Below the pieces are notes generated by a model. That model was not told the origin of the DNA, searched no databases, and saw only the letters and a list, made by a program, of their open reading frames with translations. Below are positions 22,618-47,562 of a DNA stretch of 47,996 bases, in pieces. How positions within the stretch are numbered: position 1 is the stretch's first letter; the number at the start of each line of letters is the position of its first letter. Both the position numbers and the translations under genes were made by a program. The DNA comes from a virus, in IMG/VR virus record IMGVR_UViG_3300042559_000733, positions 1-47,996 of that record; one strand, 5' to 3'.

Positions 22618-22956
22618 TTATTTATTCACTGATAAAACCCAAGATTTTGTTGATTCGTCCCAAGTATACAATTTTCCGTCGTTTGGATATGGAACAGGAG
22701 CTTCCCATTTACATGTTTCTTCATTTAAAAACCAACTTGGATATGGTTTTGGAGAAATAAATGCATCTAAAGTTACATCATATTTAAATCCAATGCCTGC
22801 ATAGTTTTTTCTTATTGTACCGTTATAACTTGTTTGTTTCCAAATTCCGCCAAATAAACTACGACACCAGTTTTCACCATTGGATTCAAACTCGTCAGGT
22901 ATTACTAAAACTCGTATTACTGTATTATCAAATCCTAATTCTGCAAAATGAGCCAT
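22618..22956 (-). CDS. Small conserved fibre-locus protein (cyanophage-type)
   Basis: 112 residues. The pattern AHFAELGFDNTVIRVLVI, then WKQTSYNGTIRKNYAGIG, DAFISPKPYPSW and KWEAPVPYPNDGK is one I recall as a widespread uncharacterised family in T4-like cyanophages and other marine phages, usually beside tail-fibre genes. It is Trp/Tyr/Pro-rich and probably a compact beta protein that decorates or caps a fibre. It has a weak Shine-Dalgarno-like AGGA nine bases from the ATG. Function is not known. Confidence 0.75.
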   Translation of the reverse strand: MAHFAELGFDNTVIRVLVIPDEFESNGENWCRSLFGGIWKQTSYNGTIRKNYAGIGFKYDVTLDAFISPKPYPSWFLNEETCKWEAPVPYPNDGKLYTWDESTKSWVLSVNK

Positions 22957-22961
22957 AATTT

Positions 22962-23801: not shown

Positions 23802-23802
23802 A

Positions 23803-24132
23803 TTAACTTATTTCTGTGCCGAATAGGTTAAATGATTGGCTAATGGATGATGCGTAAACTTGAACTTTATCATATTGTCCAAGCGTCATACCGATTGTTA
23901 ATGCGATACTATCGTTTGCTGGTACAACAGTATCATATGCCAAATAACTTTTAGCTTGAAGTGATGAACCTGATGATAACACTGCGATTCTGAATGTACC
24001 ATTTGTTGCGGATAAATTGGCTATATTTAGTGTTGAACATACTGCGGATGTTGCAGCAGGTACTGTATATAAATCGGTACTGGATGTTAAAGCAGGATTT
24101 GATTGTCCTAAAATTTTATATGTTGTTGCCAT
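23803..24132 (-). CDS. Small beta-sandwich fibre-associated protein
   Basis: 109 residues. ATTYKILGQSNPALTSSTDLYTVPA, then STLNIANLSATNGTFRIAVL, YDTVVPANDSIAL and VYASSISQSFNLFGTEIS follow the pattern of a small family I recall from marine T4-like phages next to fibre genes. It is all beta, with no signal peptide or membrane segment. It is likely a virion decoration or fibre connector protein. It lies one base from the glycine-rich gene. Function unproven. Confidence 0.7.
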   Translation of the reverse strand: MATTYKILGQSNPALTSSTDLYTVPAATSAVCSTLNIANLSATNGTFRIAVLSSGSSLQAKSYLAYDTVVPANDSIALTIGMTLGQYDKVQVYASSISQSFNLFGTEIS

Positions 24133-24159
24133 ATTCTATATATATTTTTAAATTTTGAT

Positions 24160-25374: not shown

Positions 25375-25393
25375 ATTCTATAAATATAAAATT

Positions 25394-26116
25394 TTATAAT
25401 CCAAATCTAGTTCTTGTTGCGTTGAAATTTTGTAGTACTTCGGATGCAGTTAATGCTCTATTATATACTTGAGCAATAGCAACATTGCCAGGAAAAAATT
25501 GACCGGGAGAACCTAAAGAACCACCCATTCCTACCATTAAAGATTGTGCATCGGTTGACCATTTAATAGTAAAGGTTGAGACAGCAACACCATTTATATA
25601 AAATATTGCATTATTAGACGGCGTACCAGTGTTAGTTGTAAAAGTCATTGTTAGATATTTCCATTGCCCATCAGCAATAGATACGCCCGAATTTCTAAGA
25701 ACTCCATTACCCCAATCATAAGTAGCTAAATTACCGCCGTAAACAAATAAACCATAGTTTGATTGTTTAACTAAAATGCCGTAGTAATTTACAGTCGTAA
25801 TTGTGGTTTTAGCCCAAGCTGATATTGATCCTTGGGTTATTTGTAAATTTGAAGAATTATTACAATTAACATAATCATTGGTGCCGTCAAATACTATACT
25901 ACCTTTATATGTATTATCAAAAGTGGGTCCATTTGTTAATGTACCGTTATTTCCATAACCACTTAAATCTGTCCATGTTGTACCAGTACCAGAATAACTA
26001 GAAAGATCGCCAGCGTCTAGATATAAAATTGATCCTGAAGTGATAGTAACTACAGTATTTGTACTATTAAATCTAGAACCTGTTAATTTTCTTTGTGATG
26101 TTGTTTTTAAACTCAT
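25394..26116 (-). CDS. Short LamG-domain adhesin, paralogue C
   Basis: 240 residues from the ATG at 26114-26116, which lies four bases after the stop of the long fibre upstream; a longer reading to 26173 overlaps that gene and begins with unrelated residues, so I rejected it. One LamG domain: ILYLDAGDLSSYSGTGTTW, LSGYGNNGTLTNGPTF, VFDGTNDYVN, then ISAWAKTTI and the ending LQNFNATRTRFGL. It is the third copy of the short type (with 21268-21933 and 21943-22614) but stands apart from them, so the copies have been shuffled. Ligand unknown. Confidence 0.8.
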   Translation of the reverse strand: MSLKTTSQRKLTGSRFNSTNTVVTITSGSILYLDAGDLSSYSGTGTTWTDLSGYGNNGTLTNGPTFDNTYKGSIVFDGTNDYVNCNNSSNLQITQGSISAWAKTTITTVNYYGILVKQSNYGLFVYGGNLATYDWGNGVLRNSGVSIADGQWKYLTMTFTTNTGTPSNNAIFYINGVAVSTFTIKWSTDAQSLMVGMGGSLGSPGQFFPGNVAIAQVYNRALTASEVLQNFNATRTRFGL

Positions 26117-26120
26117 AACT

Positions 26121-29100
26121 TTACATTCCCGCCAATAAAAATGGACTAATAATATCAACTGTAGAACCACCACTTGAATTTAAAGCATAACTAGCAGTAA
26201 CAGCATAACTACTTGTAACTGCATTAGTTATACTTCCAGATATCGAAATATTATCATAACTCAATACATTTACATATACCCTATCAACACTAGAACTTAA
26301 AAATGAACCACTTGGTTGTTGTGTATCGGTTAATTTCTTAATCTTTAATGATGTATCCGATAACTTTTCAATTCCATAATCAACATTACTATCATTTAAT
26401 CCACCAACCAAACCAATGTATTTAGTAGCAATTTGTGTTGCACTATTTGGAAATGCTGATGTTGGTACAGAAAAACTTGCAGTGTATCTACAAAATCCTA
26501 CTGTTACTCTCATATCATCTATATAACCAGATGCATATGAATTATCATTTGGGTTGTATGCGATTGTACTACCAGTTGTAATTCCACTACCAAAATTAAA
26601 GCTTGTGGGTAATGTATGTGTTGTTGATAATGTGCCATCCATAAACAACCTTAATGTTGTTCCTGTACGACTAGCAGCAATATGATGCCATAATCCATCA
26701 TTTGGATTTACTGATGTATTAACATCGACGAATCCAGAATTATAATACGCAAATGAAAGGATATCACTTGTGAATCTATTTTTTAATCCCCAAGCATTAT
26801 TAGTTCCACTTGGGAATTTACCAATAAGCATTGATTGATTTCCACTTGTACCTTCTGATTTCCACCAACATTCAATTGTCCAATCAACTGTTCCAAGATT
26901 ACCAACACTTGTATTTAATACCAAATAATCTCCTGTACCATCAAAATAAGCACTAGCTCCACCAAATTTATATTGTGATACACTCAATTTTGCATTACCA
27001 CTTGATGTGATTGCAAAATTATTTCTACTATTATCAATAAAATTACCGAATGAATTTACACTATCAAAATGACATAATAAACTGCAACTTGGATAATAAA
27101 TATCACCGGAACCACTATTCCATTCCTCTACAACAGTTACTCCCCATTTGTTTCCTGTCAAATTTAATCCAGTCAATGTTGATTCTTGACTGCTACTGAA
27201 ATTATAAAGAATGGTTTGATTTGCAATACTACCTGTTTGTAGTGTAGTGTTACCGTTCAAGAATCTTACATCAATTTCATCACCGTCACTATATGGTTGA
27301 TAAAAATTAAGTGTTGATCCTGTAACAGTATAACTTGAACTATAATTTTGAACAACGCCGTTAACTGATACCAAAAGATGTGCGGGATTGCTTACACTTT
27401 GTGTTAATGTATATTGTGTAGTACCACTTCCACTTACAACAATATATTGTCCAACAACAGGCGAACCGGTAATATAACTTATACTACCACCTCCACCGGA
27501 AGCATTCAATGCATATGATGCGGTTGTTGCATTGTTGCTCCAACTGCTTGTAATTGGATAAGTACTACCTGTTGTTAATGTTGTTCCACCACCTCCACCA
27601 TTTAATGAAAATGAAGCCGTCAACGCATATGAACTACTAATACTATTTAAATTATAACTGGATGTAACAGCAAAACTTGAACTGATTGAATTTAGATTGT
27701 AACTCGCAGTTGATGCAAATGAAGCAGTCAATGTATTAGTAGCCCAACTAGATGTACCAAAAACACTGCCGGTAAAACTGCTACCACTAATATTTCCATT
27801 CACCTGTAATTTAGCAATAGGATTATTTGTACCAATTCCAACTCTACTACCTGTAACAACTAATGCGTTTGAATTATATGTACCCACCACCAACCTATCA
27901 TCACTAAATACTTCCAATATTGGTAAACCACTAACATCATTTACACTCATCAATGACCCACTCAAATTGTCATCTACACTGAATAATGAACCTTGTGTTC
28001 CTTCTACGCTAAATACAACTGATCCTGAAACTAATGAACCACTACTATTGATATTTAATTTGCTATTTGGAATTGTTGTACCAATACCAATATTACTACC
28101 AGTTTCATATATAACACTGTTTCCTATAGAAGTACCTGATGTAAATTTAGATATATAATTGGTTGAACCAGTTACTGTTCCACTACCACCTCCACCACTA
28201 GCAGCATTTAACGCATATGAAGCAGTTAAAGCATTAGATGCATATGAAGCAGTAATTGCATTTGAAGTGTTTAAAGAAAATGATGATGTACCTAAAAATC
28301 CAACACCACTACTTACACTTGATGTAAAACTACTAGCACTAATATTACCACTTACTTGTAATTTAGCCACCGGAACAGATGTACCAATTCCAACTCTACT
28401 ACCTGTAACAACTAATGCGTTTGAATTATATGTTCCAACTACAAGTCTGTCGTCACTAAATACCTCCAATATTGGTAAACCACTAACATCATTTACACTC
28501 ATTAAGGAACCACTAAGATTATCATCTACACTGAATAATGAACCTTGTGTTCCTTCTACACTAAATACGACGGAACCAGATATAAGTGAACCGCTGCTAT
28601 TGATGTTTAGTTTACTATTTGGAACCGTAGTACCAATACCAATATTGCTTCCACTTTCATAAATTACGCTATTGCCTACTGCGGTTCCGGATGTAAATTT
28701 AGAAATATAATTTGCAGAACCAGTTATTGTTCCACTACCACCTCCAGAATTATTTAATGCAAATGAAGCGGTTAAAGCATAAGATGCGCTTGTTGCACTA
28801 TTGGCACTAGTTGCAGTTGATGCGAAATTTGAATAACTACTAGATATTGCATTATTTGACCAACTGCTTGTTATAGGATATGTACTGCCTGTTGTTAATG
28901 TTGTTCCACCTGCACTATTTAATGTGAATGAAGCTGTCAGCGCATACGAACTACTAATACTATTTAAATTATAACTGGATGTAGTAGCAAAACTGCTACT
29001 AACTGAAATTGTTGCATAACTTGCACTTAAACTAGCAGTAATCCCTATAATTTCGATTTGACCAGACGCAGTATTTAATGTTACTACTGGACTTTCATTC

Positions 29101-29504
29101 GCAAATAACGTTGATCCAGATGTACTTAATACTGTTTCTCCGATGTAAATACTACCTGTACTTACATACAAATCTTTCCATTTATTCGTTGGTGAACCTA
29201 GACTATATATAGACCCAGTGGATGGTATTAAACTTTGTGATATTGGGTCTAAATAACTAGCAGTGGATGAATTTCTTGAATAACTTGCACTAGTTGATGT
29301 ATTACTATAACTGGAAGTGGTTGAATTTAAACTATAACTGCTTGAAATTGAATTATTTGACCAACTACTTGTAATTGGATATAAACTACCTGTAATTAAA
29401 GTGGTTCCACCGCTTCCTGCGCTTGAACTAATTGCATATGAAGCGGTAATTGGGTAAATTGACCCAGTTTCTAATTGGTCATATTTTAATTGATTGAGTG
29501 CCAT
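26121..29504 (-). CDS. Long tail fibre with SSYALTASY repeats, internal duplication and LamG tip
   Basis: 1127 residues. The first 220 are low-complexity Ser/Thr/Tyr/Ala repeats (SISSSYALTASF type) and a segment with KWKDLYVSTGSIYIG shared with the 1186-residue fibre. Two near-identical blocks of about 140 residues follow (GTVTGSTNYISKFTSG to GTNNPIAKLQVNG), then more repeats, a beta unit (YTLTQSVSNPAHLLVSVNG), a LamG cassette near 760-1080 and the end SPFLLAGM. It is probably an extended trimeric shaft with a carbohydrate-binding tip. The duplicated block lengthens the shaft. Spacing to its neighbours is tight; no chaperone domain is visible. Confidence 0.82.
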   Translation of the reverse strand: MALNQLKYDQLETGSIYPITASYAISSSAGSGGTTLITGSLYPITSSWSNNSISSSYSLNSTTSSYSNTSTSASYSRNSSTASYLDPISQSLIPSTGSIYSLGSPTNKWKDLYVSTGSIYIGETVLSTSGSTLFANESPVVTLNTASGQIEIIGITASLSASYATISVSSSFATTSSYNLNSISSSYALTASFTLNSAGGTTLTTGSTYPITSSWSNNAISSSYSNFASTATSANSATSASYALTASFALNNSGGGSGTITGSANYISKFTSGTAVGNSVIYESGSNIGIGTTVPNSKLNINSSGSLISGSVVFSVEGTQGSLFSVDDNLSGSLMSVNDVSGLPILEVFSDDRLVVGTYNSNALVVTGSRVGIGTSVPVAKLQVSGNISASSFTSSVSSGVGFLGTSSFSLNTSNAITASYASNALTASYALNAASGGGGSGTVTGSTNYISKFTSGTSIGNSVIYETGSNIGIGTTIPNSKLNINSSGSLVSGSVVFSVEGTQGSLFSVDDNLSGSLMSVNDVSGLPILEVFSDDRLVVGTYNSNALVVTGSRVGIGTNNPIAKLQVNGNISGSSFTGSVFGTSSWATNTLTASFASTASYNLNSISSSFAVTSSYNLNSISSSYALTASFSLNGGGGGTTLTTGSTYPITSSWSNNATTASYALNASGGGGSISYITGSPVVGQYIVVSGSGTTQYTLTQSVSNPAHLLVSVNGVVQNYSSSYTVTGSTLNFYQPYSDGDEIDVRFLNGNTTLQTGSIANQTILYNFSSSQESTLTGLNLTGNKWGVTVVEEWNSGSGDIYYPSCSLLCHFDSVNSFGNFIDNSRNNFAITSSGNAKLSVSQYKFGGASAYFDGTGDYLVLNTSVGNLGTVDWTIECWWKSEGTSGNQSMLIGKFPSGTNNAWGLKNRFTSDILSFAYYNSGFVDVNTSVNPNDGLWHHIAASRTGTTLRLFMDGTLSTTHTLPTSFNFGSGITTGSTIAYNPNDNSYASGYIDDMRVTVGFCRYTASFSVPTSAFPNSATQIATKYIGLVGGLNDSNVDYGIEKLSDTSLKIKKLTDTQQPSGSFLSSSVDRVYVNVLSYDNISISGSITNAVTSSYAVTASYALNSSGGSTVDIISPFLLAGM
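27781..28196. repeat. Direct repeat, copy 1 (inside long fibre gene)
   Basis: Matches 28333-28748 at a constant offset of 552 bases with scattered, mostly silent differences. Because the offset is a multiple of three the frame is kept. Confidence 0.88.
28333..28748. repeat. Direct repeat, copy 2 (inside long fibre gene)
   Basis: Second copy of the block at 27781-28196. The protein copies are nearly identical while the DNA differs at many third positions, so the protein is under selection after duplication. Confidence 0.88.
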
Positions 29505-33159: not shown

Positions 33160-36100
33160 TTATTTATTTTCTAATTGTGATATTCTATTTTCTAATATTT
33201 CAATTTTTTCAAGTAAATGTTTAATTACTTTACTGTGATATGGAGTTACTTGTTCATAATTCATAACAAACTGAGCATCTTTTGGATTAATAAATCCATC
33301 CGATTCAATTATTTCTTCCATTCCTTCTTTTTTAACTATCCCGACTAAATGATCAAACCCAGATTTATATACTTGTTGTGCGGAATAACCAGTCTTTGTT
33401 CCAGCATCTACACCATCTTTCCACTTATATTTGATTGATATTACTTTATTAACAAAGTCAACTGCTTCATTTAATGGTATTTCACCATCAATATTCTTCA
33501 ATCTTTCATCGGATGGCGCATCAAACTCTTGTGCCATGATTCTGCTATCACATGTAAGACTATATGGATTTGGAGATGTACCTGTAGTGGTACCGGCGCC
33601 ACTACTAATCAAATAACCATATGGTTGTGTAATTGCTGCACTAACACTACCTACAATCGTTACAAATCCTTTTTGTATACTAGTGCCAATACACATACCA
33701 CCAGTAGATCCACTTTGTCCATTTACAACAAACATACCAGAACCAGAACAGTTTAACCAAAGATTTGTGCCAGGACTTGTACTATGTAAATGAACATTGC
33801 CATCGTCAAAGAGCAAACCATGATTACCAACTTTTAATCCTGCACCTGTATTTCTTAATTGTGTGACATTTGCAGATTGTGCAGTTGGCAATTGTAATGA
33901 ACCACTGTCAGTTAGTGTAAATATATTTGTACCATAATTGCTATTAATTATTTCTAAGTTGCCAGTATCATTTAAACGGAAATATTTATTTGGATTTAGG
34001 ACACTTGCACTTGTATTGCTTACATATAAGAAATCATGATATGCACTACCACCTTTGGTATTTTGTCCTGTAATTGTTAATGTTCCATTAGTTGATGTAC
34101 CTGTACTACCAGAACTATTTATATTTAAAGTTGTTACTGTATAATTGTTTGTTGTCGTCAAATTACTTGCGGTAAATGAATTAGTAGACCAACTAGATGT
34201 AAATGCATAACTAGCAGTTGCTGATGTATATGACGATGATATTACAGTCAAATCAATTGGCCAAACCAATCCTGTACCATAAACATTAATAACTTTGCTG
34301 GAACTAAATTCCAATCTATATGTTAAACTAGCAGTATTCTGTGATGTTAAATTTATATCATTACTGTAAATAAACTTACCAGTTTCATACGAACCTCTTT
34401 TAATCAAACTAGCAGTAGTATAAGAAATACCACCGTTATTTGATAAATAAAACTTTAAATCTTGATTTATTACCCAAGGATCATCATCGTTGTTTTCAGC
34501 AAATATTAACGCTCTTACTACAGAAGGATATACAACAGAACTACTAATTGTTCTAATTGGATATGAAGTTAAACTGTTAACACCCCCCACATTATTATAA
34601 TATGACTTATTTATAGAATCCCAAGATGCACTTACAACCGTTGCTAATGTATTATATACATAATAATTGTCAACAAATCCATCTTCTATGTTTGGATCAA
34701 CCGCAGTAGTTGTTGTTAAACTTGACGATTCAAATGATGCAGTAACAGATGCAACAGATACATTTGCTACAGTATATTTCAATAATTGATTTCCCAAACC
34801 ACCTGCACCACCCGCACCACCAGTACCATATAAACTACCCACACCACCTGAACTAGAAGTACCACCCGCAATACTAAAAGTTCCAACCGAATTTACATAA
34901 TTGGATTTTACTAACACTGCACCACCTGCACCCGCACCACCGCCACCACCACCGTCATCTGATGAAGTACCGTTTACACCTCTACTTCCTGTAGATTGTA
35001 TTATTGATGCGTTGTTAAAATTATTCGCATAAATTAATACTATGCCGCCGCCAGAACCACCAATTCCACCAGATCCATTAACAGCTCTACCGCCGCCACC
35101 ACCGCCACCACCAAACATTAATAGTGTAGTACTAGTATTATATGCAGTACCACCAGAACCGCCTAAATTTACACTGTATGATGAATTTGAACCAGCTGAT
35201 CCATTTGTTCTATTTGCACCACCACCGCCACCACCACCGCTTCTGTTATTTGCGGTATCACCAGAGTTATTACCACCACCGCCACCGCCGCCTCCACCAA
35301 TACTTGTGGTTGCGGATCTACCTAATCTTGAACAAAATGCAACACTGTTTACTCCTTGATATGATTCTGCTCTGTCACCTGCAGGAGATGGAGTTGGAGA
35401 CTGTGTACAACCAGCTCCACTATCATTAATACCACCCACGCCAAATCTAAAACCTTTACCATTTGTATTAATTGAACCACTATTAATTAATGTGTCACAT
35501 TTAAATGCTACTATACCACCTAAAGATCCGCTCCAATTATTTGCAGTTAATGAACCAGCAGACGTAATTGTTACGGTCGAATAATTCGGAACTCTTTGTA
35601 ATGTGATTTTTTGATTTCCTAATACAGAATTGCCAGATTGACCGTATGATCTAGAAACTGGAGAATTAAAAGAAATTACATTGGTCGATATACCAGACAC
35701 TCTCAGAAATTCATAATTGCCAACATTACTATAATATGTTGTGTCTCCTTGTACATTTATCAACAACATTTCATCTCCAACTGCAACACCTGTTACAGAA
35801 GAACCAGATACAGTAATATTTGATGTTGATGATGATGATGTAATTGCAGTGACTAAATAAGCAACACCATCTGCTACGGTTCTACCAGAGGCAAGTGTAT
35901 CTGTAGATATGTTTTTTGCTGTTGATATAGTTATAAGACCATCTGCTTGTGTACCATAATCATTTGATACAATTGAAATTAATTGTTCTGGTTTTCTTTC
36001 ATATGTTAACAGAACGTTATCGTATAGATTGTTTAATAATACATCGTAAACAATTATAGTTGAGCCTGTACCACCGCCGCCTCCATTAAGTGCATATGAT

Positions 36101-37494
36101 GATGTTAATGCGTAACTTGCACTATTAACATTTGGGGTAGTTAAGAATCTGATATCAACCAAAGATCCCGATGGAATATTTTCTGTAAAATTAATGGTTG
36201 AACTAGTAACCGTATAAGCATTGTTGAAAGCTTGTACTGCGCCATCAACTGCGACAACAATTTCATATGAATTTACAACACTTCTTGATAATGCGTAGCT
36301 GGATGTACTTCCTACTGCGGTAAATGCTTGACCCAATAATGGTGAACCTGCACTTATATTATTATAATTCAATACATTAACATACACTCTATCTACTGAT
36401 GAACTTAAAAACGAACCACTTGGTTGTTGTGTATCTGTTAATTTTTTGATTTTTAATGAACTATCACTTAGTTTTTCAATGCCGTAATCAACATTAGTAT
36501 CGTTTAACCCTCCAACCAATCCAATATACTTTGTAGCAGTTTGCGTTGCACTATTTGGAAATGCTGTTGTCGGAACAGAAAAACTTGCAGTATATCTTGA
36601 TATACCTTTAGTAATTCTAAATTCATCTATATAACCATTAAATGATCCGCTAGTACTATCAAATGTTCCAATTCTTGACCGTGGAAATCCACCATTGGCC
36701 GTAATTGATCCACTATAACTTGCACTATTATTTAATGTACCGTTTATAAATAATCTAAGTATATTGCTTTGTCTTGTTACTGCGATATGATTCCAATTTC
36801 CATTTGCAACAGAAACACTTCCTGAAAAAATTCTATTTGTATCATACAAACCTATACTACCATTTGATGATTCAAGAAATATTTGAAAATTGCCGGCCGC
36901 TCCTGCTGCCGGTCCATCTGTCATATATATTCTCCTTATAAATCCACCTTGAGTTGAAAAAACTGTTGTAGCAACCCATGTTTCTATAGTAAAATCGCCA
37001 GTACCAAAAGCAAACGCAGAACTAGCACTGATATCTAAATAATCACCGGTTCCATCAAAATACGCACTTGCATCACCGAATTTGTAATTTGCAAAGCTTG
37101 GGGAAATAGTACCAGATGAAGTTATTATATGATTATTTCTGCTATCGTCGATAAATCTGCCTGCAGAATTTAAACTATCAAAATGCATTAATAAACTACA
37201 GCTTGAATAGTAAATGTCACCAGAACCACTGTTCCATTCTTCTACAACATTGATTCCCCAGTTATTATTTGTGAGCGTCAAACCTGTAATTGTAGCTTCT
37301 TGACTGCTGCTAAAATTATAAAGAATCGTTTGGTTATTTAAACTCGCTACACTTACAACAGGTGTACCTCCACCACCACTGCCACCATTCATTGCATATG
37401 ATGATGTAACAGCATAACTAGCAGTTCCTAATAAAGAACCTGTTATAGATCCATTTGGTTGAATTAATGATTGTCGTAATCTTGTAAATGGCAT
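33160..37494 (-). CDS. Giant tail fibre with LamG, glycine-rich domain and S74 self-cleaving chaperone
   Basis: 1444 residues. Order: leader SSYAMN and Gly hinge; a LamG cassette (about 50-390); a beta unit; a glycine-rich domain about 721-901 with GGGGGGGG runs; further beta regions; SSYTSATASYAF repeats; and an intramolecular chaperone domain at the C-terminus. The last begins with SDERLKN, the Ser-Lys dyad of the peptidase S74 family (S1328 and K1333), and ends in a coiled coil (IEILENRISQLENK). In this family the chaperone trimerises the fibre and then cuts itself off before the Ser. Cleavage would leave about 1327 residues on the virion. Confidence 0.88.
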   Translation of the reverse strand: MPFTRLRQSLIQPNGSITGSLLGTASYAVTSSYAMNGGSGGGGTPVVSVASLNNQTILYNFSSSQEATITGLTLTNNNWGINVVEEWNSGSGDIYYSSCSLLMHFDSLNSAGRFIDDSRNNHIITSSGTISPSFANYKFGDASAYFDGTGDYLDISASSAFAFGTGDFTIETWVATTVFSTQGGFIRRIYMTDGPAAGAAGNFQIFLESSNGSIGLYDTNRIFSGSVSVANGNWNHIAVTRQSNILRLFINGTLNNSASYSGSITANGGFPRSRIGTFDSTSGSFNGYIDEFRITKGISRYTASFSVPTTAFPNSATQTATKYIGLVGGLNDTNVDYGIEKLSDSSLKIKKLTDTQQPSGSFLSSSVDRVYVNVLNYNNISAGSPLLGQAFTAVGSTSSYALSRSVVNSYEIVVAVDGAVQAFNNAYTVTSSTINFTENIPSGSLVDIRFLTTPNVNSASYALTSSYALNGGGGGTGSTIIVYDVLLNNLYDNVLLTYERKPEQLISIVSNDYGTQADGLITISTAKNISTDTLASGRTVADGVAYLVTAITSSSSTSNITVSGSSVTGVAVGDEMLLINVQGDTTYYSNVGNYEFLRVSGISTNVISFNSPVSRSYGQSGNSVLGNQKITLQRVPNYSTVTITSAGSLTANNWSGSLGGIVAFKCDTLINSGSINTNGKGFRFGVGGINDSGAGCTQSPTPSPAGDRAESYQGVNSVAFCSRLGRSATTSIGGGGGGGGGNNSGDTANNRSGGGGGGGANRTNGSAGSNSSYSVNLGGSGGTAYNTSTTLLMFGGGGGGGGRAVNGSGGIGGSGGGIVLIYANNFNNASIIQSTGSRGVNGTSSDDGGGGGGAGAGGAVLVKSNYVNSVGTFSIAGGTSSSGGVGSLYGTGGAGGAGGLGNQLLKYTVANVSVASVTASFESSSLTTTTAVDPNIEDGFVDNYYVYNTLATVVSASWDSINKSYYNNVGGVNSLTSYPIRTISSSVVYPSVVRALIFAENNDDDPWVINQDLKFYLSNNGGISYTTASLIKRGSYETGKFIYSNDINLTSQNTASLTYRLEFSSSKVINVYGTGLVWPIDLTVISSSYTSATASYAFTSSWSTNSFTASNLTTTNNYTVTTLNINSSGSTGTSTNGTLTITGQNTKGGSAYHDFLYVSNTSASVLNPNKYFRLNDTGNLEIINSNYGTNIFTLTDSGSLQLPTAQSANVTQLRNTGAGLKVGNHGLLFDDGNVHLHSTSPGTNLWLNCSGSGMFVVNGQSGSTGGMCIGTSIQKGFVTIVGSVSAAITQPYGYLISSGAGTTTGTSPNPYSLTCDSRIMAQEFDAPSDERLKNIDGEIPLNEAVDFVNKVISIKYKWKDGVDAGTKTGYSAQQVYKSGFDHLVGIVKKEGMEEIIESDGFINPKDAQFVMNYEQVTPYHSKVIKHLLEKIEILENRISQLENK

Positions 37495-37507: not shown

Positions 37508-40500
37508 TTATGGAGTCATATAAACCATACTAAATGAAGTTGCAGATGATGATGCGCTATTTGTAATAGCAGCACTTGTATTTGAATAAAACTGTATATA
37601 ATCGGTTGTTCCATTAAAATAAACTAAAAATGATATTGATCCTTGGACAAATCCTACACCACCATTGCTTACAATTCTATTGCCGTTTTTAAAAAGTCCT
37701 AAATATCCTTCCGAACTTGAAGACCCACCATAAACTCTTGCTGATCCACAAACCATATACCAGCCAGCTACATTTGGTGTAAATCTACCATTCGAATTAT
37801 CATACCAACTAGTTGAATCGCTTACTGCCGTATCGTATTTTATAATTGTATCGGCATAACCACCGGGATTTACAATACTTGTTGTACCATATCTATAAAT
37901 AGCTGTTCTAGGAGCACTTGTTGTAGAAAAGCTAGATGTTAAAGCATAACTGCTACTAACAGTCGATCCTCCACTTGATGCACCTCCTAAAAATCTTACA
38001 TCAATATTTGAACCAGAATCTGCATTTTCTGTTAAAGTTAAAGTTGAACCTGAAACAGTATAACTGCCTGTTCTGGATTGAACCAGTCCGTCTAATATTA
38101 CTAAAATTTGATCATTGTCACTTACACTTTGTGTTAATGATAATTGACTTATAGAAGCAGATGGTACAAATGTTTGTCCAATTATACTAGATGTTGACGA
38201 TGAACCCCCACCCCCAGCAAAAAGCGCATATGAAGCTGTTAACGAATACGAACTACTAATTGAATTTATAACATAACTTGCAGTGGTTGCAAAACTAGAA
38301 CTGGTAGAATTGACTGTACTAGCAACATAACTACTGCTTATACTATTATTGCTCCAACTTGCAGTTATTGGATACGTTGATCCAGTTGTTAATAATGTAC
38401 CGGCATTTGATGCAAATGATGCGGTTAAAGCATAACTTGCACTGGTTGCTGCATTAGCACTATTTGCAGTATTTGCTGAAGTAGCGGTTACTGCTGCATT
38501 GGCAACAAATGCATAACTGGAAGTCAATGCGTAACTTGCACTGGTTGCACTATTTGCAGTTACTGCCGTTGTTGCGTTTCTTGCATAACTAGAAGAAAAA
38601 GAATAACTGGAACTTATTGCATTTAAAGCAATACTAGATGTATTAGCAAAACTTGAACTCAACGATGATGTGATCCCTGCAACTTCAATTAACCCAGATG
38701 ATGTATTGAATGTTACAACAGGCATAACATCGGAATATAATGTAGAACCGGATGTACTTAATACAATATTACCAATGTAAATACTGCCGGTACTTACATA
38801 CAAATCTTTCCATTTATTGGTTGGTGATCCTAAACTATATACTGAATTACTAATTGGAGTCAAATCTTGAGCAACAGGACTCAAATTACTAGCAGTTCTT
38901 GCATAACTACTACTAATAGATACACTACTAAAACTACTAGTCACAGCATTACTTGCCAAACTACTTGTTCCTAATAAACTACCAGTAATTGATGTAGCAT
39001 TTATAATTGCAGCAGTAATACTATTAGTTGCATTTAAACTACCAGATAAAATATAAGACCCCACTAATGTTTTGCTATTTACCCACTGTGTACCATTTCC
39101 ATAAGTTAATAAATCACCTTGACTTACACCAGAAATAGCAACGTCACTCAAACTATCAAGATTTGTTGCGGATGGTGATGTTCCTCCATTTCCTATACCA
39201 CCAACACTTCTAAACAATCCGGCTTGAACTATTGTAGATTTGCCAGCGGTAATTAAATCGGTACAATCACCTTCAGCAATCACATATGCAGTCAATATCG
39301 CATTTAATGCAGTATTAGGCGCTTCTGTAAATGCTTCTGTATTTACACCATTTTGTGCATCAAGCAATGTACCATATACTAAATTGCCATAATACACCAA
39401 AAATGCGTTAGTAGGACTATTTGGTATCCAAAATACTCTTTGAATAGTGAACTGATTAGCACCACTACCACTTAAAGCAGTTAAAGTTCCATTATTGTTA
39501 TATTTGGTAATATCTAATGTAGGATATCCAGCATTGCCAACACCTGTATCAATTACAGCAGTGCTTCCACTCATGTAGTACCGAAATATTTTGCTACTGG
39601 TTATTGCATTTTCGGTAACCGAACTTGGATGATTTGGATTTATGTTATAATTTGCACCTTCACGAAATGATACACCACCTGTTTTTGTAATTCCTAATGT
39701 ACTTCCACTTGCTTGTATTGTATGTCCGCTGATTTTAAGTGAACCAAATGCTCTAACAAAATCATCAGTCTTTTGTGGATATCCATAACTGATTTGTGGA
39801 CTATTAAATACGCCTGTGCTAACACTTCCACTCAAATGTAAAACCACACCAAGATGTATTTCAGTATCCCACTGGTCAATATCATTACTACCCCAAGCAT
39901 TTGTTTGTTGTACTATTTGACCAGTACTATCTATACCAATATAAGTAATTTGTGCACTAGCACTATAAATCAATGGTATATTAGTATAATTCCCCCAATC
40001 AATTTCTCTAATAGTAGGATTTGGATCACTACCAGTGGTAGCATTCATTGAAACGATTAGTCCACTGCCACTTGCAATATTAAATGTTGTTGAACCGGGA
40101 GTACTAGTAAGTGTTCCGCCAAATAATATGCCGGTGTACATATTGCTGTCCAACCAACTTAGTCTGGTTGTGCTAGTATGTATTCCGTTATAGTGTCTGA
40201 AATAAAGATCATTTGTACTATCATTTGTAAAAATATAACTTGCAGTAACATTTGATGGTATTGAACTACTTGTTATAGGAAACAATTGAATATATGCATT
40301 ACTACCACTAAGATGTATTGGTCCGCTACTGGTAATATTATTGAATGATGTATTGGTACTTGAAATACTATTTGCACTAATATTACCACTTGCACTTATA
40401 TTACTTGAAGTAACATTTGTTGCATTTACTGTTCCTCCTGACAAATTGGTTGCGGTTGAACTATTTGCAGTATAACTTGAACTTATACTATAGCTACTTG

Positions 40501-41068
40501 ATATTGAATTATTACTCCAACTACTTGTTATAGGATATGTTGATCCTGTTGTCAGTGATGAACCCGCATTTAGAGAATATGATGATGTAAAGCTATAACT
40601 ACTTGAAATTGAATTGTTTGCCCAACTTGATGTTATAGGATATGTTGAACCGGTAACTAATATTGATCCTTCAAATCTTCTTATTTCAATAGAGCTGCCT
40701 GATGATGGAATTCCACTAAATATTAAAGTTGAAGAGGACAGTGTATAATTTGTAGTAGGAATTTGTTCAAGACCATTAATAAATACAAAAATATCATTTG
40801 ATGATTCTGTACCATTCGTAGTAATTGTATATGACGAAGATATTCCATTTGCGGTAATCTTTTGACTGGAAATATTAATACTACTCAAAGTACCATATCC
40901 ACCACCGCCTCCTCCGCCACCCAATACACCACTTGATGAAAAGAAATTACTAACTGTTATTTGTTTACTTGAACCGGATATAAAATCAGTAGTATCACCC
41001 GTATTAACAACATATAATATGTCATTAAGTGACGCTGTATACAAAATTGGTAGATCCGTGATTCTCAT
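37508..41068 (-). CDS. Long tail fibre with C1q-like head
   Basis: 1186 residues. The N-terminus (RITDLPILYTASLNDILYVVN) is a common fibre attachment segment, followed by SSYALTASF-type repeats. A middle domain (about 380-640: HLGVVLHLSGSV, FGSLKISGHTIQ, KTGGVSFREGANY, FTIQRVFWIP, TEAPNTALNAI) is a beta domain I recall from fibres of many phages. After more repeats and a beta unit (ISQLSLTQSVSDNDQILVILDG) it ends in a C1q/TNF-like jelly roll of about 135 residues (RFTPNVAGWYMVCGSARV, LGLFKNGNRI, FSMVYMTP), a trimeric receptor-binding head. The fibre lies next to the baseplate-proximal proteins, so it may be the main long fibre. Confidence 0.84.
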   Translation of the reverse strand: MRITDLPILYTASLNDILYVVNTGDTTDFISGSSKQITVSNFFSSSGVLGGGGGGGGYGTLSSINISSQKITANGISSSYTITTNGTESSNDIFVFINGLEQIPTTNYTLSSSTLIFSGIPSSGSSIEIRRFEGSILVTGSTYPITSSWANNSISSSYSFTSSYSLNAGSSLTTGSTYPITSSWSNNSISSSYSISSSYTANSSTATNLSGGTVNATNVTSSNISASGNISANSISSTNTSFNNITSSGPIHLSGSNAYIQLFPITSSSIPSNVTASYIFTNDSTNDLYFRHYNGIHTSTTRLSWLDSNMYTGILFGGTLTSTPGSTTFNIASGSGLIVSMNATTGSDPNPTIREIDWGNYTNIPLIYSASAQITYIGIDSTGQIVQQTNAWGSNDIDQWDTEIHLGVVLHLSGSVSTGVFNSPQISYGYPQKTDDFVRAFGSLKISGHTIQASGSTLGITKTGGVSFREGANYNINPNHPSSVTENAITSSKIFRYYMSGSTAVIDTGVGNAGYPTLDITKYNNNGTLTALSGSGANQFTIQRVFWIPNSPTNAFLVYYGNLVYGTLLDAQNGVNTEAFTEAPNTALNAILTAYVIAEGDCTDLITAGKSTIVQAGLFRSVGGIGNGGTSPSATNLDSLSDVAISGVSQGDLLTYGNGTQWVNSKTLVGSYILSGSLNATNSITAAIINATSITGSLLGTSSLASNAVTSSFSSVSISSSYARTASNLSPVAQDLTPISNSVYSLGSPTNKWKDLYVSTGSIYIGNIVLSTSGSTLYSDVMPVVTFNTSSGLIEVAGITSSLSSSFANTSSIALNAISSSYSFSSSYARNATTAVTANSATSASYALTSSYAFVANAAVTATSANTANSANAATSASYALTASFASNAGTLLTTGSTYPITASWSNNSISSSYVASTVNSTSSSFATTASYVINSISSSYSLTASYALFAGGGGSSSTSSIIGQTFVPSASISQLSLTQSVSDNDQILVILDGLVQSRTGSYTVSGSTLTLTENADSGSNIDVRFLGGASSGGSTVSSSYALTSSFSTTSAPRTAIYRYGTTSIVNPGGYADTIIKYDTAVSDSTSWYDNSNGRFTPNVAGWYMVCGSARVYGGSSSSEGYLGLFKNGNRIVSNGGVGFVQGSISFLVYFNGTTDYIQFYSNTSAAITNSASSSATSFSMVYMTP

Positions 41069-41103: not shown

Positions 41104-43524
41104 TTATATATCTATCGCAAAACCGTATTGATCTGTAAATACATCAGTACCATTTTGAAAAGAAGCAGTTACCCAAATGTCACTAGATGAATATATATCA
41201 TCTGTTGAAGCATTCAATATTACTGGTAAATACCAATAACTGCTTGTATTATATTGATAATGTGGCCAATTTTTTATTGAAAAACTAGCTTTATATGGTA
41301 TATTGTAGTCTAGATTATCTTTATAAGTAGTTGTTGAACCCTTTCCGATTATAATTATTTCTATATCATCTTGATAATCTATCCTACTTGATGTCAATTG
41401 ACTACCAGACATGTAGAATATTTCATTTATTTGACGTACATAGTGTCTTAATGATGAACCATTGAATGTTAAATTCGAAGAACTATCATACGGAACAAAT
41501 GATATCTTTGATGCGGTTGCTTGATCGGATGTAATAGAATATAAGTCTGTCCCCACCAAACTTTGAGATATTAAAGATTTTTCTTGACTTGAGATGATAT
41601 CAACTGACAATCCTATAGCTTCATTTACGGTTTCATTTGATAGATTATATGTTAAATCACTTAAGTTTGAACGGTTATTAGTCGATTGTTTAAATATTGT
41701 ATAATCAACATTTGAACTTATATTGAATATAATATTTTCCGATGAAAATACATAATCCAAAGACGGAACAATATTGAAATTTAAAATTTCCGGGGAATAT
41801 ACATAATTTAAAGATGTAGATATTCTATTGTCATTTATATCTAATAAACTATATGAATAGTTTAATGAAGACTTTATGTTAGAATTTATTGATTCTTTAT
41901 ACTGTTCATAACTCAGATTATTAAATGAAATGTTATTAGTTGATTTTTCTTGTGATAATTCGTGTAATAAATCATTTAAATTAAAATCAAATGTCGATAA
42001 TTCTTTTGATAATTCGTATTTTATATCATTTAAATTTGACGTTAATATAATAGGAGTCGAATTTTGTAGATATGATAAATTGTTTAAATCGGATGTTAAT
42101 GTGACGGGAGTTGAATTTTGTAGATATGATAATTCATTGATTTTATTTCTAAAAGTTGTAGGAAATGAATCATATTTTATTAAAATGTCATTTATCTTAT
42201 TTGAAAAATTAAATTTATCTGATAATACCAATTCGTGTAATATTCGTCCTGTTTTATTTGATAGATTTGATTGATCGAAAACAGTCAATTCAGACGAAAT
42301 ATTATTTATTTTTATATTAAAATCGTTTTGGTCTATATGAACCATAGAATTTAATATCTCATTCAATTTCGAATTAGTAGTGGATGTAACCAATAATTTG
42401 GATTCAAATGTAGAAAGATTATTTAATGTTAAATTATTATTTCCAAAATCTACTGCGATAGATAAATTGTGAACTATTTCATTCGAAGATAATATATTTT
42501 TATTTACATCATAGTTTGGAAGAACAAAAGATGCACCAACGATATTATTATAAAATAAACTATTATCAATAACGCTTGGTTTATATTCAATCTCGTTTAT
42601 ATTAAATGTATACTGTGATGAATCTATTAAAGCAAGTTTTTTTTCAATTACATTTAATGTTTCATAATTTGTTGAATTATCAATTAATTGTTTATTATAT
42701 TCCGTTTTATTTGGACCAATTGTATTGTTTATTTTATCGATTAAAGTAAAATATAAATCAATATTATTTAATTTTAAATTTTGATTATGAGTATCTAACG
42801 TAACATTATAAAGATTTATTCCGACTAATGAATTTTTAATGTTTGATAAATCTAATATTGAAGGATTTGTTTCCAACTTATTTAGATTTAGATTATTATT
42901 GTTTCGATCCAACGTGGTTATTAGATTTGAATCAATATTATTCAAAACATTTTTATTAGACGTTGAATTTATGTTTACATAATCAATATTTATATTTTTT
43001 GACGATAGTAAATTCTGTGTACTATTTAAATTGAGAATATCATAATTTAATTTATTATATCCTAATAAATTTTGAACTGTTTCATTAGAAGAAGAATCAT
43101 ATAAATTATTTCTTAATCCAAAAGATTCTTGTATATTTGCAATTGGAGTTAATGTATAGTTGTTATTTCTTAATCCAAATGATTCTTGTACATTTGTCGG
43201 TGGAGTCAATTCATAACTAATATCTTTTAATTTGGATGATATTGTTGATTTGTCACTAACAAACTGTAAATAATCAACATTGTTTAAAACCAAATTATTA
43301 ACAGACTTTTCAGAAAGATAAAATTGACTGATATTAGGTGAACCAAGATAAAAATTACTTTTTTCTATGAAATTGTCTGGTAAAAGTTTTGCATTATTTA
43401 GATTTAATGATTCACTTACACTAGACGAAAGTGCTTCTGAGATAATTAATTCTCTTCCTCTTTTATAGTAAGAAAGAGGAAGAGATTTAAATCTTTTATA
43501 AAATATGTTATGAAATAATCTCAC
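41104..43524 (-). CDS. Asn-rich protein built of about 18-residue repeats, candidate fibre shaft
   Basis: 806 residues of unknown family. From about residue 60 to 660 the chain is a repeat of 17-20 residues with a consensus near (N/L)xLxYxLSxxxSxxxxxL; tight examples are NELSYLQNSTPVTLTSDL, NNLSYLQNSTPIILTSNL and NDIKYELSKELSTFDFNL. Asn, Ser, Leu and Ile dominate and Gly and Pro are rare. The N-terminus is basic (MRLFHNIFYKRFKSL), and the end is a beta domain (IEIIIIGKGSTTTYK, IWVTASFQNGTDVF). It starts with GTG (43522-43524) overlapping the stop of the 71-residue gene by GTGA. Location between fibre genes suggests a virion shaft. No enzyme motif is visible. Confidence 0.75.
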   Translation of the reverse strand: MRLFHNIFYKRFKSLPLSYYKRGRELIISEALSSSVSESLNLNNAKLLPDNFIEKSNFYLGSPNISQFYLSEKSVNNLVLNNVDYLQFVSDKSTISSKLKDISYELTPPTNVQESFGLRNNNYTLTPIANIQESFGLRNNLYDSSSNETVQNLLGYNKLNYDILNLNSTQNLLSSKNINIDYVNINSTSNKNVLNNIDSNLITTLDRNNNNLNLNKLETNPSILDLSNIKNSLVGINLYNVTLDTHNQNLKLNNIDLYFTLIDKINNTIGPNKTEYNKQLIDNSTNYETLNVIEKKLALIDSSQYTFNINEIEYKPSVIDNSLFYNNIVGASFVLPNYDVNKNILSSNEIVHNLSIAVDFGNNNLTLNNLSTFESKLLVTSTTNSKLNEILNSMVHIDQNDFNIKINNISSELTVFDQSNLSNKTGRILHELVLSDKFNFSNKINDILIKYDSFPTTFRNKINELSYLQNSTPVTLTSDLNNLSYLQNSTPIILTSNLNDIKYELSKELSTFDFNLNDLLHELSQEKSTNNISFNNLSYEQYKESINSNIKSSLNYSYSLLDINDNRISTSLNYVYSPEILNFNIVPSLDYVFSSENIIFNISSNVDYTIFKQSTNNRSNLSDLTYNLSNETVNEAIGLSVDIISSQEKSLISQSLVGTDLYSITSDQATASKISFVPYDSSSNLTFNGSSLRHYVRQINEIFYMSGSQLTSSRIDYQDDIEIIIIGKGSTTTYKDNLDYNIPYKASFSIKNWPHYQYNTSSYWYLPVILNASTDDIYSSSDIWVTASFQNGTDVFTDQYGFAIDI

Positions 43525-43736
43525 ACATTATAAATAGGAAGTTTGTAATTTGTTCCATTTATTTTTATAATGATATAACCAACTGAAACACCCGCACCAC
43601 CAGTGGGAGTTTGATCAAAATTCAAACTTCCTGATAATATTAAAAAATTATCATTTATTTTAGCAAATGATGTACGCAATGAATCTGCACTATCAGAATT
43701 TGCAATTGAACCTGAATTAACTAATTGATATGCCAT
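43521..43736 (-). CDS. Small fibre-base protein with SLRTSFAKINDNF motif
   Basis: 71 residues. SIANSDSADSLRTSFAKINDNFLIL is the widespread start of many T4-like tail-fibre and baseplate proteins (GDSLRTAFxKINxNF), here as a free-standing small protein with a short Gly-rich joint and a last beta strand. It could cap or join the Asn-rich protein, whose GTG start overlaps its stop. Because the motif normally opens longer fibres, this gene may be the detached N-terminal attachment domain of the downstream protein. No Shine-Dalgarno. Confidence 0.75.
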   Translation of the reverse strand: MAYQLVNSGSIANSDSADSLRTSFAKINDNFLILSGSLNFDQTPTGGAGVSVGYIIIKINGTNYKLPIYNV

Positions 43737-43751: not shown

Positions 43752-45755
43752 TTAAGCTCTGGCCCAACTGTATCTAAATACAACTTTCAATGAATAATCC
43801 TTATCTTTGGTTTGATTATTTTCTAGTACATAAACATATCCATTGTATTTAGCAGCATCTGTCATTGTACTAGGATTTATATTCAAACTTGTAGGTCCAA
43901 TTCCAATTGTTCTCCAAGAAGGAGCAGAACCAGTGGCCCAATAAGTAGCAGGAATATCAATATTATTAGCAACTTGGTTACTAAATATAGCATATTTATC
44001 TCTGAAATAACTGCCGGTATTGTACGGTACTATAGTTAAAGGCAATTCAAATGAATAAACCTTTGAGCCAGTATTACTAGATCTATCTAAAGATGAACTA
44101 AATAGTGTTGCAGAGCCAGTATGTGTAGATAAGAATACGCTTGCACCACGAACCCAATAATTTGATAGTTGATTTATTGGTGATGGCAACCCACTGGTTT
44201 GAGAGAATGGATTCCAATCATCCCAATACGGATATGATGCGGGAACTTTTCTATTTCTCACAACAGGAGCAGAACCAGTACCATCCTGAGAAGTTCTGCC
44301 AAGAAAACTTGAAGAATCAGGTTCGTATGCAGAAGCAGTAGTATTATTGCCAGGTCCAGCTAATCCACCAGGATACAATGGATATGATAAACCACCACTA
44401 GTTTGTAAAGATACGTCATAAAAATAGTTATTGATTAAATTACTATTATTAATTGATCCTGCTAATATAGCGGTTGATCCAGATCTAGAAGTATATGTGC
44501 TTAATTTACAATAAGGTGTCCACAAATTGTCCAGATATATGAATACTGAATTCGTAACATACAGTGCAGTATTAACTGGAGTATATCCGATATTTGGATC
44601 AAATGATATAGAATTATATCTTCCTGTAGAAATGTTGCTATTGCCAAATTTTGATGATGTGTTACTAGCATAAACTCCAGTATAAACATTATACAATGAA
44701 GAATATATGAAATCGGTTGTAAAATAATTTCTTGGTAAATAACTTGATGTATGTGGAACACAGAAACTTCCACTATATCTACCATCTGCAAGAGTGGTAC
44801 TAGCACTAATACCAGCATCAAGAATTTGATAAATATTACCATATCCTGCGTCGAATTCTTGCAATGGTCCAACAGCTTTAAATGGATTTGTTTCATACGA
44901 TGCGGATGCTGATCCTGTTGCAGAACCAGATACACTGTTGTAAGGATAATAATTTACATTTGTACCATTATAATATCTATTTACGAATCCATATGCTGGT
45001 CCGAAACTTAATTGGCCTGGAGCAAATGGTTCGTTACAAAATCCACCTTCGTCAATTGGAATTGCCAAACCACTTCCACTATCAATACCACACAAACCTA
45101 CTTTTTGAATTGCTTCTTTATCTAATGAACCTGTTGTCCATCCAGTAAATGAAGGAAATGGATTTGGTGTTACACCACCATCACTGCCAGTTGCAGGATT
45201 CAAAGTTACACGTAATTCATATGAAACACGCATAAATTGTCCAGCATGCAAACTCATTGTAGGATCGAAACGAATTTTACTAAACAATGTTGTTGCGGCT
45301 GGTGTTTCTTTAAATCCTACTTCAGTATAAGTTACATTGTCATTTTCTTTATAAAAATCAAATGTTCTGAATAATCTTACTGTGCTTCCAGATATTACGT
45401 GTCCACAATTACCTTGACCAGGCAAATAAAATGCATGAATTTTCTTTGGACTTTTTAACATTGTTTCATCATATGATGCAGTTGCTGGATCTGCGCCGGT
45501 ATATGGATAATCACCAATCAAACAAAATTGAAATGTTTGTGCCCATGGCATATAAGCAATTTTGTCCAATCCACTATTTAAAATTGTGTTTGGTTTCCAA
45601 CCAGTTGAAAATGCTTCGTTAATATTGCCTGTCGCATCAGGTTCCATCACAGATGCTTTATAGAACCCTTTTACAGTTCTATGTACATTAATAACCTGTG
45701 TTTTTTCCTCGGTTGTTTTTTGACCTGGTCTTACAATAAATTGATCCATGTTCAT
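43752..45755 (-). CDS. Virion structural protein, 667 residues
   Basis: A mostly beta protein, Tyr/Ser/Gly-rich, with no membrane span. The N-terminus TVKGFYKASVMEP, then WKPNTILNSGLDKIAYMPW and TYTEVGFKETPAA, LFSKIRFDPTMSLHAGQFMRVSYELRVTL is a pattern I recall from structural proteins of marine phages that sit at the fibre base. The middle is a set of Ser/Tyr-rich loops with GSATGSAS. The C-terminus ends YKYVYVLENNQTKDKDYSLKVVFRYSW-like strands. It is likely a baseplate or fibre-connector protein and the first large gene of the adhesin transcript. Its 132-base upstream gap holds a motif and a terminator. Confidence 0.7.
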   Translation of the reverse strand: MNMDQFIVRPGQKTTEEKTQVINVHRTVKGFYKASVMEPDATGNINEAFSTGWKPNTILNSGLDKIAYMPWAQTFQFCLIGDYPYTGADPATASYDETMLKSPKKIHAFYLPGQGNCGHVISGSTVRLFRTFDFYKENDNVTYTEVGFKETPAATTLFSKIRFDPTMSLHAGQFMRVSYELRVTLNPATGSDGGVTPNPFPSFTGWTTGSLDKEAIQKVGLCGIDSGSGLAIPIDEGGFCNEPFAPGQLSFGPAYGFVNRYYNGTNVNYYPYNSVSGSATGSASASYETNPFKAVGPLQEFDAGYGNIYQILDAGISASTTLADGRYSGSFCVPHTSSYLPRNYFTTDFIYSSLYNVYTGVYASNTSSKFGNSNISTGRYNSISFDPNIGYTPVNTALYVTNSVFIYLDNLWTPYCKLSTYTSRSGSTAILAGSINNSNLINNYFYDVSLQTSGGLSYPLYPGGLAGPGNNTTASAYEPDSSSFLGRTSQDGTGSAPVVRNRKVPASYPYWDDWNPFSQTSGLPSPINQLSNYWVRGASVFLSTHTGSATLFSSSLDRSSNTGSKVYSFELPLTIVPYNTGSYFRDKYAIFSNQVANNIDIPATYWATGSAPSWRTIGIGPTSLNINPSTMTDAAKYNGYVYVLENNQTKDKDYSLKVVFRYSWARA

Positions 45756-45837: not shown

Positions 45838-45865
45838 AACCCACACAAAATTAATTATGTGGGTT
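45838..45865 (-). terminator. Intrinsic terminator after the 92-residue gene
   Basis: AACCCACA (45838-45845) pairs with TGTGGGTT (45858-45865), loop of twelve. On the minus strand it is followed by TTTTATTG. It ends the unit of the two small genes at 45888-46382 and separates it from the adhesin genes. Confidence 0.8.
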
Positions 45866-45887: not shown

Positions 45888-46166
45888 TTACTTTTTGGCT
45901 GGAATAAATGTACCGTCTTTCAACGATAATGATCCTTCACCATACTTTGTAGTGATACCATTTAACCAAGTTTCTTCTTCTTTTTGAATTTCCAAGAAGT
46001 TGTTTTTCAAACTTGATTCTGCTTCTGTTAGTTGTTTGAATTTTTCATCCAAAGATAGTTTATCTAGATATAACTGTCCAAATCGGAAAGTATTTTCTTG
46101 ATATTTGGATTGAATTTTACCCAAACCATCTAATTCTTCTTGTGTAAATTTGATTGGGTCAGACAT
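45888..46166 (-). CDS. Small coiled-coil protein, unknown
   Basis: 92 residues, largely one long charged helix (EELDGLGKIQSKYQENTFRFGQLYLDKLSL, then EESSLKNNFLEIQKEEETWL-like) ending in a short beta hairpin (GSLSLKDGTFIPAKK). I recall similar small proteins from marine T4-like phages, position conserved near structural genes, with no known role; a scaffold or assembly role is possible. It is coupled to the 70-residue gene upstream and followed by a terminator. Confidence 0.72.
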   Translation of the reverse strand: MSDPIKFTQEELDGLGKIQSKYQENTFRFGQLYLDKLSLDEKFKQLTEAESSLKNNFLEIQKEEETWLNGITTKYGEGSLSLKDGTFIPAKK

Positions 46167-46453: not shown

Positions 46454-47113
46454 ATGAAAATCTTGTTTTGTTTACCAGGCAGAGAATTTAGTGGACAATT
46501 TTTACAATGTTGGAGCAATTTACTTGGATACTGTTATAGACAAGGACATAGTATTATTTATTCCCAAAAGTATAGTTGCAACATTTATTACGCTCGTAAT
46601 ATGTGTTTGGGTGGAAACATATTAGCCGGAGAAAATCAAAAGCCATATGGTGGTAAATTAGACTATGATTATATGATGTGGATAGACAGTGACATTATCT
46701 TTACTCCACAACAATTTCAACGATTATTGGATCATAACCAAGATATTGTCAGTGGATTATATCTAATGGATGGTGGTAATGCATATGCAACCGTCAAAGA
46801 TTGGAATGAAGATTATTTTCAACAAAATGGAAATTTTCAATTTATGACCCCCGATCAAATAATATCATTTCAAAAAAATGGTAAATTGTTTCCTGCGGTT
46901 TATACAGGATTTGGATTTATATTGATTAAACGAGGTGTATTTGAAAGCATGAAATATCCTTGGTTCAAACCTGAATTTGTTAATATTAGAGGTTCAACTG
47001 ACTTTACCATGGAAGATGTTGCTTGGTGTAGAGAAATAACAAAATTGGGATACAAAGTAATGATTGATCCCAATATCATTGTTGGACATGAAAAAACCAA
47101 GATTTATATTTAA
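46454..47113 (+). CDS. Glycosyltransferase, GT-A type (only plus-strand gene)
   Basis: 219 residues. A nucleotide-binding start (MKILFCLPGREFSGQF), the metal-binding DxD as DSD at 78-80 (MMWIDSDIIF), an acceptor-side GFGFILIKRGVF segment near 153-164, and EDVAWCRE near 187-194 form a GT2-like GT-A fold that I have seen in phages and giant viruses. It would transfer a sugar from a nucleotide-sugar to a protein or glycan. Placed amid fibre genes on the other strand, it may glycosylate virion fibres or alter the host surface; substrate is unknown. It converges on the fibre assembly gene, and the two stop codons share TTAA. Confidence 0.85.
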   Translation: MKILFCLPGREFSGQFLQCWSNLLGYCYRQGHSIIYSQKYSCNIYYARNMCLGGNILAGENQKPYGGKLDYDYMMWIDSDIIFTPQQFQRLLDHNQDIVSGLYLMDGGNAYATVKDWNEDYFQQNGNFQFMTPDQIISFQKNGKLFPAVYTGFGFILIKRGVFESMKYPWFKPEFVNIRGSTDFTMEDVAWCREITKLGYKVMIDPNIIVGHEKTKIYI

Positions 47114-47562
47114 ATCATAGGAATTGACGGCCAAAAAACATTATCCAAATGATCTGAAAAATCTTGGGGAACATCTCTAAGTTTTTGACGATACAATGAT
47201 AATGATGCTTTCTTTTCATCTGTATAAGTATCCCATCTATCTGACATGACATATACATCTGACTTTGCCAATAATGCATTTCTTTTTTCTCTAACTTCAA
47301 TTAAACATTCTGCATTATATTCTTCTTTGGTTTTATCTACCACTTCAACAATATAAACTTTATTGTTTATAAGTGTTGGTGTTATTGATTTCAATTTTTG
47401 TTTCTTGACATCATATGATAAACTATCTACAACTTCATATAAATTATGAAATTCCATGAATGGTTGTGGAACTGTTCCGTCAGGTGGAAATGCGGTATCT
47501 GGGAACATTTGTGTGTGTTCGTCAACAAATATCTGATTATTTATTACTTTTGCTATTTTCAT
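47110..47562 (-). CDS. Tail fibre assembly protein
   Basis: 150 residues. The C-terminal half has the standard chaperone signature: EVREKRNALLAKSDVYV, LSLYRQKLRDVPQDFSD and VFWPSIP, typical of phage tail-fibre assembly proteins (the RxxRNxLLxxsD...YRqaLRDvP...WP pattern). The N-terminal half is a beta region (NNQIFVDEHTQMF) with a linker. Such proteins help the adjacent distal fibre protein fold and trimerise. Here the adjacent upstream gene (47573 onward) is a fibre protein. It is the only member of this family in the window, though it may serve several fibres. Confidence 0.85.
   Translation of the reverse strand: MKIAKVINNQIFVDEHTQMFPDTAFPPDGTVPQPFMEFHNLYEVVDSLSYDVKKQKLKSITPTLINNKVYIVEVVDKTKEEYNAECLIEVREKRNALLAKSDVYVMSDRWDTYTDEKKASLSLYRQKLRDVPQDFSDHLDNVFWPSIPMI

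Follow-up and report, generated by a model that had tools for sequence, protein, structure and literature searches.

What does a long Asn-, Ser- and Leu-rich protein, built largely of short repeats, do in the fibre locus of a virus, and what kind of structure could its repeats form? This question is raised by a gene in a 48-kb virus record, which was analysed over its whole length of 47,996 nucleotides (the window). The initial annotation had described an unrecognised protein with scarce Gly and Pro and more than 30 repeats of about 18 residues extending for some 600 residues, possibly representing a new type of fibre shaft. The gene, whose boundaries had been called exactly, and its parts are as follows:

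41104-43524, minus strand: repeat-protein gene, a GTG-start ORF of 806 aa
43288..43524, minus strand: N-terminal non-repeat segment, residues 1-79 (MRLFHNIFYKRFKSLPLSYYKRG...), slightly basic
41560..43287, minus strand: repeat array, residues 80-655 (~576 residues), defined by autocorrelation, segmentation, ungapped column tests and whole-unit indels relative to its homologue in contig L001
41104..41559, minus strand: C-terminal non-repeat domain, residues 656-806, the most conserved part

The composition of the 806-aa protein (N 15.3, S 13.9, L 12.0, I 9.6, P 2.4 and G 2.2%; Gly+Pro 4.6%, no Cys) agrees with the initial description, and self-comparison confirmed a real periodic array. Lag identity across residues 80-660 was highest at lag 19 (z 8.5), followed by 18 (5.4), 38 (4.9) and 57 (3.0), whereas no lag in any of 1000 shuffles exceeded 4.5. 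The dominant unit is 19 residues long in the N-terminal and middle parts, and 18-residue units occur only from around residue 444; the period of 18 is therefore correct for the two examples first given, which come from this region, but not for most of the array. Iterative segmentation gave a consensus of about L-N-N-I/L-D/S-Y-x-L-x-x-I-D-x-S-N-F-x-x-N. Automatic segmentation placed 26 units before residue 655 and four more, probably spurious, inside the C-terminal domain; filling weak gaps by eye brings the count for the array to ~31. The units share just ~28% identity with one another. In ungapped sets of 13 units from the window protein and 17 from the L001 homologue, column hydrophobicity exceeded all 2000 cyclic-shift controls in both proteins and correlated between them (r 0.83). 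An aliphatic residue at position 1, Asn at 2-3, Tyr at 6, Asp at 12 and Ser at 14 recur at fixed places in the unit.

Homologue searches indicated that the protein is indeed unrecognised. No match was found in Pfam, PHROGs, NCBIfam or PDB, including any homology to a recognised fibre family or to a known non-virion family, and none was found in 50,697 phage records, in two scans of GTDB genomes or by tblastn against INPHARED with the low-complexity filter on. Two weak library matches, PSF3_N (0.012) and RPE2 (0.048), were below the cut-off and located within the repeats. IMG/VR was scanned with the whole protein, both of its ends, the sequences of two neighbours and a degenerate three-unit DNA pattern, and among the contigs scanned the only other member was the L001 protein, which at 1088 aa is 282 residues longer. 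Eight other matches to the DNA pattern contained in-frame stops or had no continuing repeat array. The two proteins are ~60% identical over aligned positions and best conserved at their ends, with 70% identity over the first 61 residues and 87% over the last 152. Comparison of the two genes gave an overall dN/dS of ~0.38 and, for the C-terminal part, a dN of 0.09, a dS of 0.54 and a dN/dS of 0.17, which shows that the gene is under purifying selection at the protein level. A read-through artefact or non-coding frame is ruled out by the overall ratio together with the conserved start and gene order described below.

The L001 array is clearer than that of the window protein (lag-19 z 15.1). Its residues 251-573 form 17 consecutive units of exactly 19 residues each, without a gap; position 1 is aliphatic and position 12 is Asp in every one of the 17. 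The length difference between the two proteins largely consists of whole units, and their alignment shows one large block together with gaps of 17, 18 and 19 columns. In the DNA of the window, two tandem duplications of single units are still visible:

42029..42132, minus strand: tandem duplication of one 54-bp (18-residue) unit, INELSYLQNSTPVTLTSD / LNNLSYLQNSTPIILTSN (TRF period 54, 84% matches, 0% indels)
43107..43231, minus strand: tandem duplication of one 57-bp (19-residue) unit, LKDISYELTPPTNVQESFG / LRNNNYTLTPIANIQESFG (TRF period 57, 77% matches, 0% indels)

Tandem duplications of 54, 57 and 114 bp are also present in the L001 DNA, the clearest of them without indels. The array therefore grows by DNA-level tandem duplication of units. 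Collectively, the selection data, the comparison with L001, the unit-wise indels and the duplications show that this is a real gene, selected at the protein level, that alters its length by whole units. Fixed ends combined with a variable number of uniform units are characteristic of a spacer or shaft.

The genes around the array place it in a fibre locus, as initially proposed, in the company of a tail fibre chaperone, an S74 fibre and laminin-G-like adhesins:

43521..43736, minus strand: 71-aa protein directly upstream of the repeat gene, translationally overlapping it
43752..45755, minus strand: p667, a 667-aa neighbour, probably a structural or fibre-locus protein (73% identity in L001; also in L005 and L006)
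37508..41068, minus strand: next gene, a 1186-aa fibre protein with a conserved N-terminus and divergent remainder
45838..45865, minus strand: weak terminator-like hairpin between a 92-aa gene and the 667-aa gene (hairpin count not above shuffles)
47110-47562: tail fibre assembly chaperone
33160-37494: S74 chaperone fibre
21268-26173: several laminin-G-like (concanavalin A fold) paralogues resembling structural proteins of Flavobacterium phage immuto
14871-17288: separate tape measure gene (phrog_167, E 2.9e-07)

The last two bases of the repeat gene's GTG start, read together with the A that follows, are the TGA stop codon ending the 71-aa ORF, and the same GTGA overlap is present in L001. 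In the repeat frame, a stop lies two codons ahead of the GTG (TAA-TGT-GTG), so coupled re-initiation is a simpler explanation than a frameshift fusion of the two ORFs. The first 34 residues of the 71-aa protein, which is 86% identical in L001, are similar to the N-terminal end of proteins in a baseplate wedge / tail fibre connector family (phrog_677, E 8.9e-05). The order p667, 71-aa protein, repeat protein, fibre protein is kept in L001, and the hairpin at 45838..45865 may mark the start of an operon that includes the repeat gene. The first 48 residues of the 1186-aa fibre protein are 77% identical to its L001 counterpart and approximately the first 131 align at 57%, with short weak matches only elsewhere; a weak C1q-like match (E 0.042) was also detected in this protein. 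The fibre locus additionally holds small proteins common to relatives and is followed by the tail tube, baseplate hub and tape measure genes. The separate tape measure gene argues against the repeat protein being a tail tape measure. When array length was to be compared with tape measure length, no match to this gene was found in the L001 record, which is a fragment. Homologues of the tail tube, baseplate hub, tape measure and a further tail protein occur in collinear order in Microcystis phage Mel-JY01 and immuto, UvsX shares 49% identity with its Mel-JY01 counterpart, and a related contig carrying p667 encodes a T4-type capsid protein that is 53% identical to that of immuto. Judged by these sequences, the phage is T4-like and related to both.

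In this setting, we consider it somewhat probable that the protein is a virion fibre or spacer in which two ends are held apart by an oligomeric, beta-rich shaft of ~31 units. A fibre locus can carry other genes, and a non-virion product, such as a secreted or host-surface directed protein, would be compatible with the lack of a homologue and with a non-structural glycosyltransferase-like gene (46454-47113) already lying inside the locus; we infer virion placement, as we do the oligomeric state, the beta fold, the outward end and docking to the 1186-aa protein. However, the translational overlap with the baseplate/fibre-connector-like 71-aa gene, the fibre-gene strand and the identical arrangement in both viruses make a non-virion role very unlikely, and no signal peptide is evident by eye. 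The glycosyltransferase-like gene itself is on the plus strand, in the opposite orientation within the locus, matches phrog_1574 (E 4.8e-61) and the glycosyltransferase family phrog_34859 (E 1.4e-06), and is retained in L001 and L005.

The signatures of known fibrous folds were compared with both arrays. As in the triple beta-spiral shafts of adenovirus fibre and reovirus sigma1, short tandem units set the length by their number, and the alternating hydrophobic pattern is shared in part. However, the triple beta-spiral consensus, 15 residues (a-o) with hydrophobic residues at c, e, g, k and m and Pro or Gly at j (PMC3150272), did not appear at any phase in either protein (best hydrophobic mean 0.55, P/G 0.0 at j); the P/G fraction per unit column is at most 0.24-0.31. 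Orsay virus delta is likewise a viral beta-repeat shaft with Asp/Asn in its loops and a length that varies between relatives, but its beta-bracelet has an eight-residue period of five-residue strands and three-residue loops (PMC7565637), and lag 8 is depleted relative to chance in our array (z -3.1), whose unit is 18-19 residues. A Gly at every third residue, as in collagen, is absent at 2.2% Gly, [LIV] at every sixth residue, as in left-handed beta-helices, is not seen (best three-position mean 0.54-0.55), and the 3.5-residue hydrophobic period of coiled coils is likewise missing, with a power of 0.1 for the window array and 0.6 for L001. The initial view that the array is unlike collagen or triple beta-spiral shafts is thus upheld.

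A solenoid or beta-helix had also been suggested from the period and hydrophobic alternation. In a single-chain beta-solenoid, each 18-19-residue unit would form one coil of a rod roughly 15 nm long, with Asn 2 and Tyr 6 stacking from coil to coil. As in parallel beta-helix and beta-solenoid rods generally, unit length is near-constant, here across 17 units, hydrophobic positions recur, and Asn and Tyr, together with the aliphatic, Asp and Ser positions, are fixed. AlphaFold2 (AF2) gave no usable model for or against such a fold: the full-length protein with a two-sequence alignment gave a pLDDT of 27, and a segment of four units, modelled from a five-row unit alignment, gave no solenoid but two strands at unit positions 6-12 and 4-10, which at a pLDDT of 37 are suggestive only. 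For perfect repeats, AF2 tends to over-predict confident beta-solenoids (PMC11795689), and the lack of one here counts mildly against a single-chain solenoid, tempered by units that are only 28% identical and by shallow alignments. In addition, position 7 is hydrophobic too in L001 (0.71), so alternation is not strict, Asp 12 in every coil would require an outward or turn position, and the hexapeptide pattern of left-handed helices is absent. The regularity behind the original suggestion stands, and we regard a single-chain solenoid as a possible but unlikely fold.

The low confidence of both AF2 runs and an Asn+Ser content of 29% would also suit a flexible, mostly disordered virion linker, such as a whisker or tether, with one short hydrophobic sticker per unit, and a tail protein of a relative, phage LR756508, has a disordered-looking spacer of charged repeats. 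This alternative appears improbable, given that strand-forming residues make up 43-46% of the arrays of the window protein and L001, the protein falls on the folded side of a charge-hydropathy plot, the hydrophobic columns and unit length are fixed, and indels are strictly whole-unit.

Returning to the oligomeric beta-rich shaft, hydrophobic residues at positions 4, 6, 8 and 11 followed by Asp-x-Ser-Asn suggest that each unit would contribute one strand at positions 4-11 (IxYxLxxI) and one polar Asn/Ser/Asp turn or loop at positions 12-19. The shaft would probably be an oligomer, with a trimer proposed by analogy with other tail fibres, and would keep the short N-terminal segment and the conserved C-terminal domain apart, its length changing in evolution as entire units are duplicated or lost between two ends that remain constant. 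Conservation peaks in the C-terminal domain, which is therefore likelier to be a connector or registration element than a host-specific tip, and could register the oligomer or dock another fibre component, for example the conserved N-terminus of the 1186-aa protein. Counting against a fibre or spacer are a family of two members, neither with a homologue of known function, the lack of a confident model, and an N-terminus that lacks the attachment motif seen at the start of the neighbouring fibre gene. That the 18-19-residue unit represents a new type of virus fibre shaft, tuned in length by whole-unit duplication, is a tentative proposal that we would not yet favour; such a fold could possibly differ from triple beta-spiral, triple beta-helix, beta-bracelet and collagen shafts.

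Under this reading, the repeat protein would act as a functional analogue of a proximal half-fibre, comparable to the proximal long tail fibre (gp34 type) of T4-like phages. The proposed likeness is one of role, with a long shaft between conserved ends, a T4-like fibre locus and fibre-gene neighbours; unlike gp34-type proteins, the repeat protein has no sequence match in PHROGs, Pfam or PDB, and its docking is conjectural. Within the same operon, the fibre proteins encoded at 37508-41068 and 26121-29504 carry low-complexity SSSYALTASY-type repeats, which differ visibly in being Ser/Thr/Ala-rich with a shorter unit. To our knowledge, few types of viral fibre shaft have a known structure, and a highly regular array outside the published signatures tested, with a relative that differs by whole units, is well suited to testing how shafts fold and how fibre length evolves. 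It would also name one structural gene in a clade of environmental T4-like phages.

Further observations concern the organisation of the tail genes. The homologue of the 92-aa gene in Mel-JY01 and immuto leads directly into the tail sheath and tube genes, while ~26 kb of mostly fibre genes separate this gene from the tube in the window (45888-46166 and 19365-19856). No tail sheath was found by homology within the window, and the possibility that p667 is a diverged sheath was tested and unsupported. The window tail protein encoded at 12255-14849 (864 aa) appears to correspond to the C-terminal part of a protein of LR756508.1, a 484-kb uncultured phage (L033:9855-14600), whose N-terminal array comprises ~50 charged repeats of 16-17 residues (VPxEDExFxHxxxNES, lag-17 z 12.5). 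The Mel-JY01 homologue of the same tail protein (L008:20572-27339, 2255 aa) features a very long Asn-rich N-terminal extension. Finally, a fibre-locus ORF at L001:14378-15262 contains a three-fold repeat of ~45 residues (IYFLSYENPELGxxTDNNSINRNEIxQLSVNDTLF).
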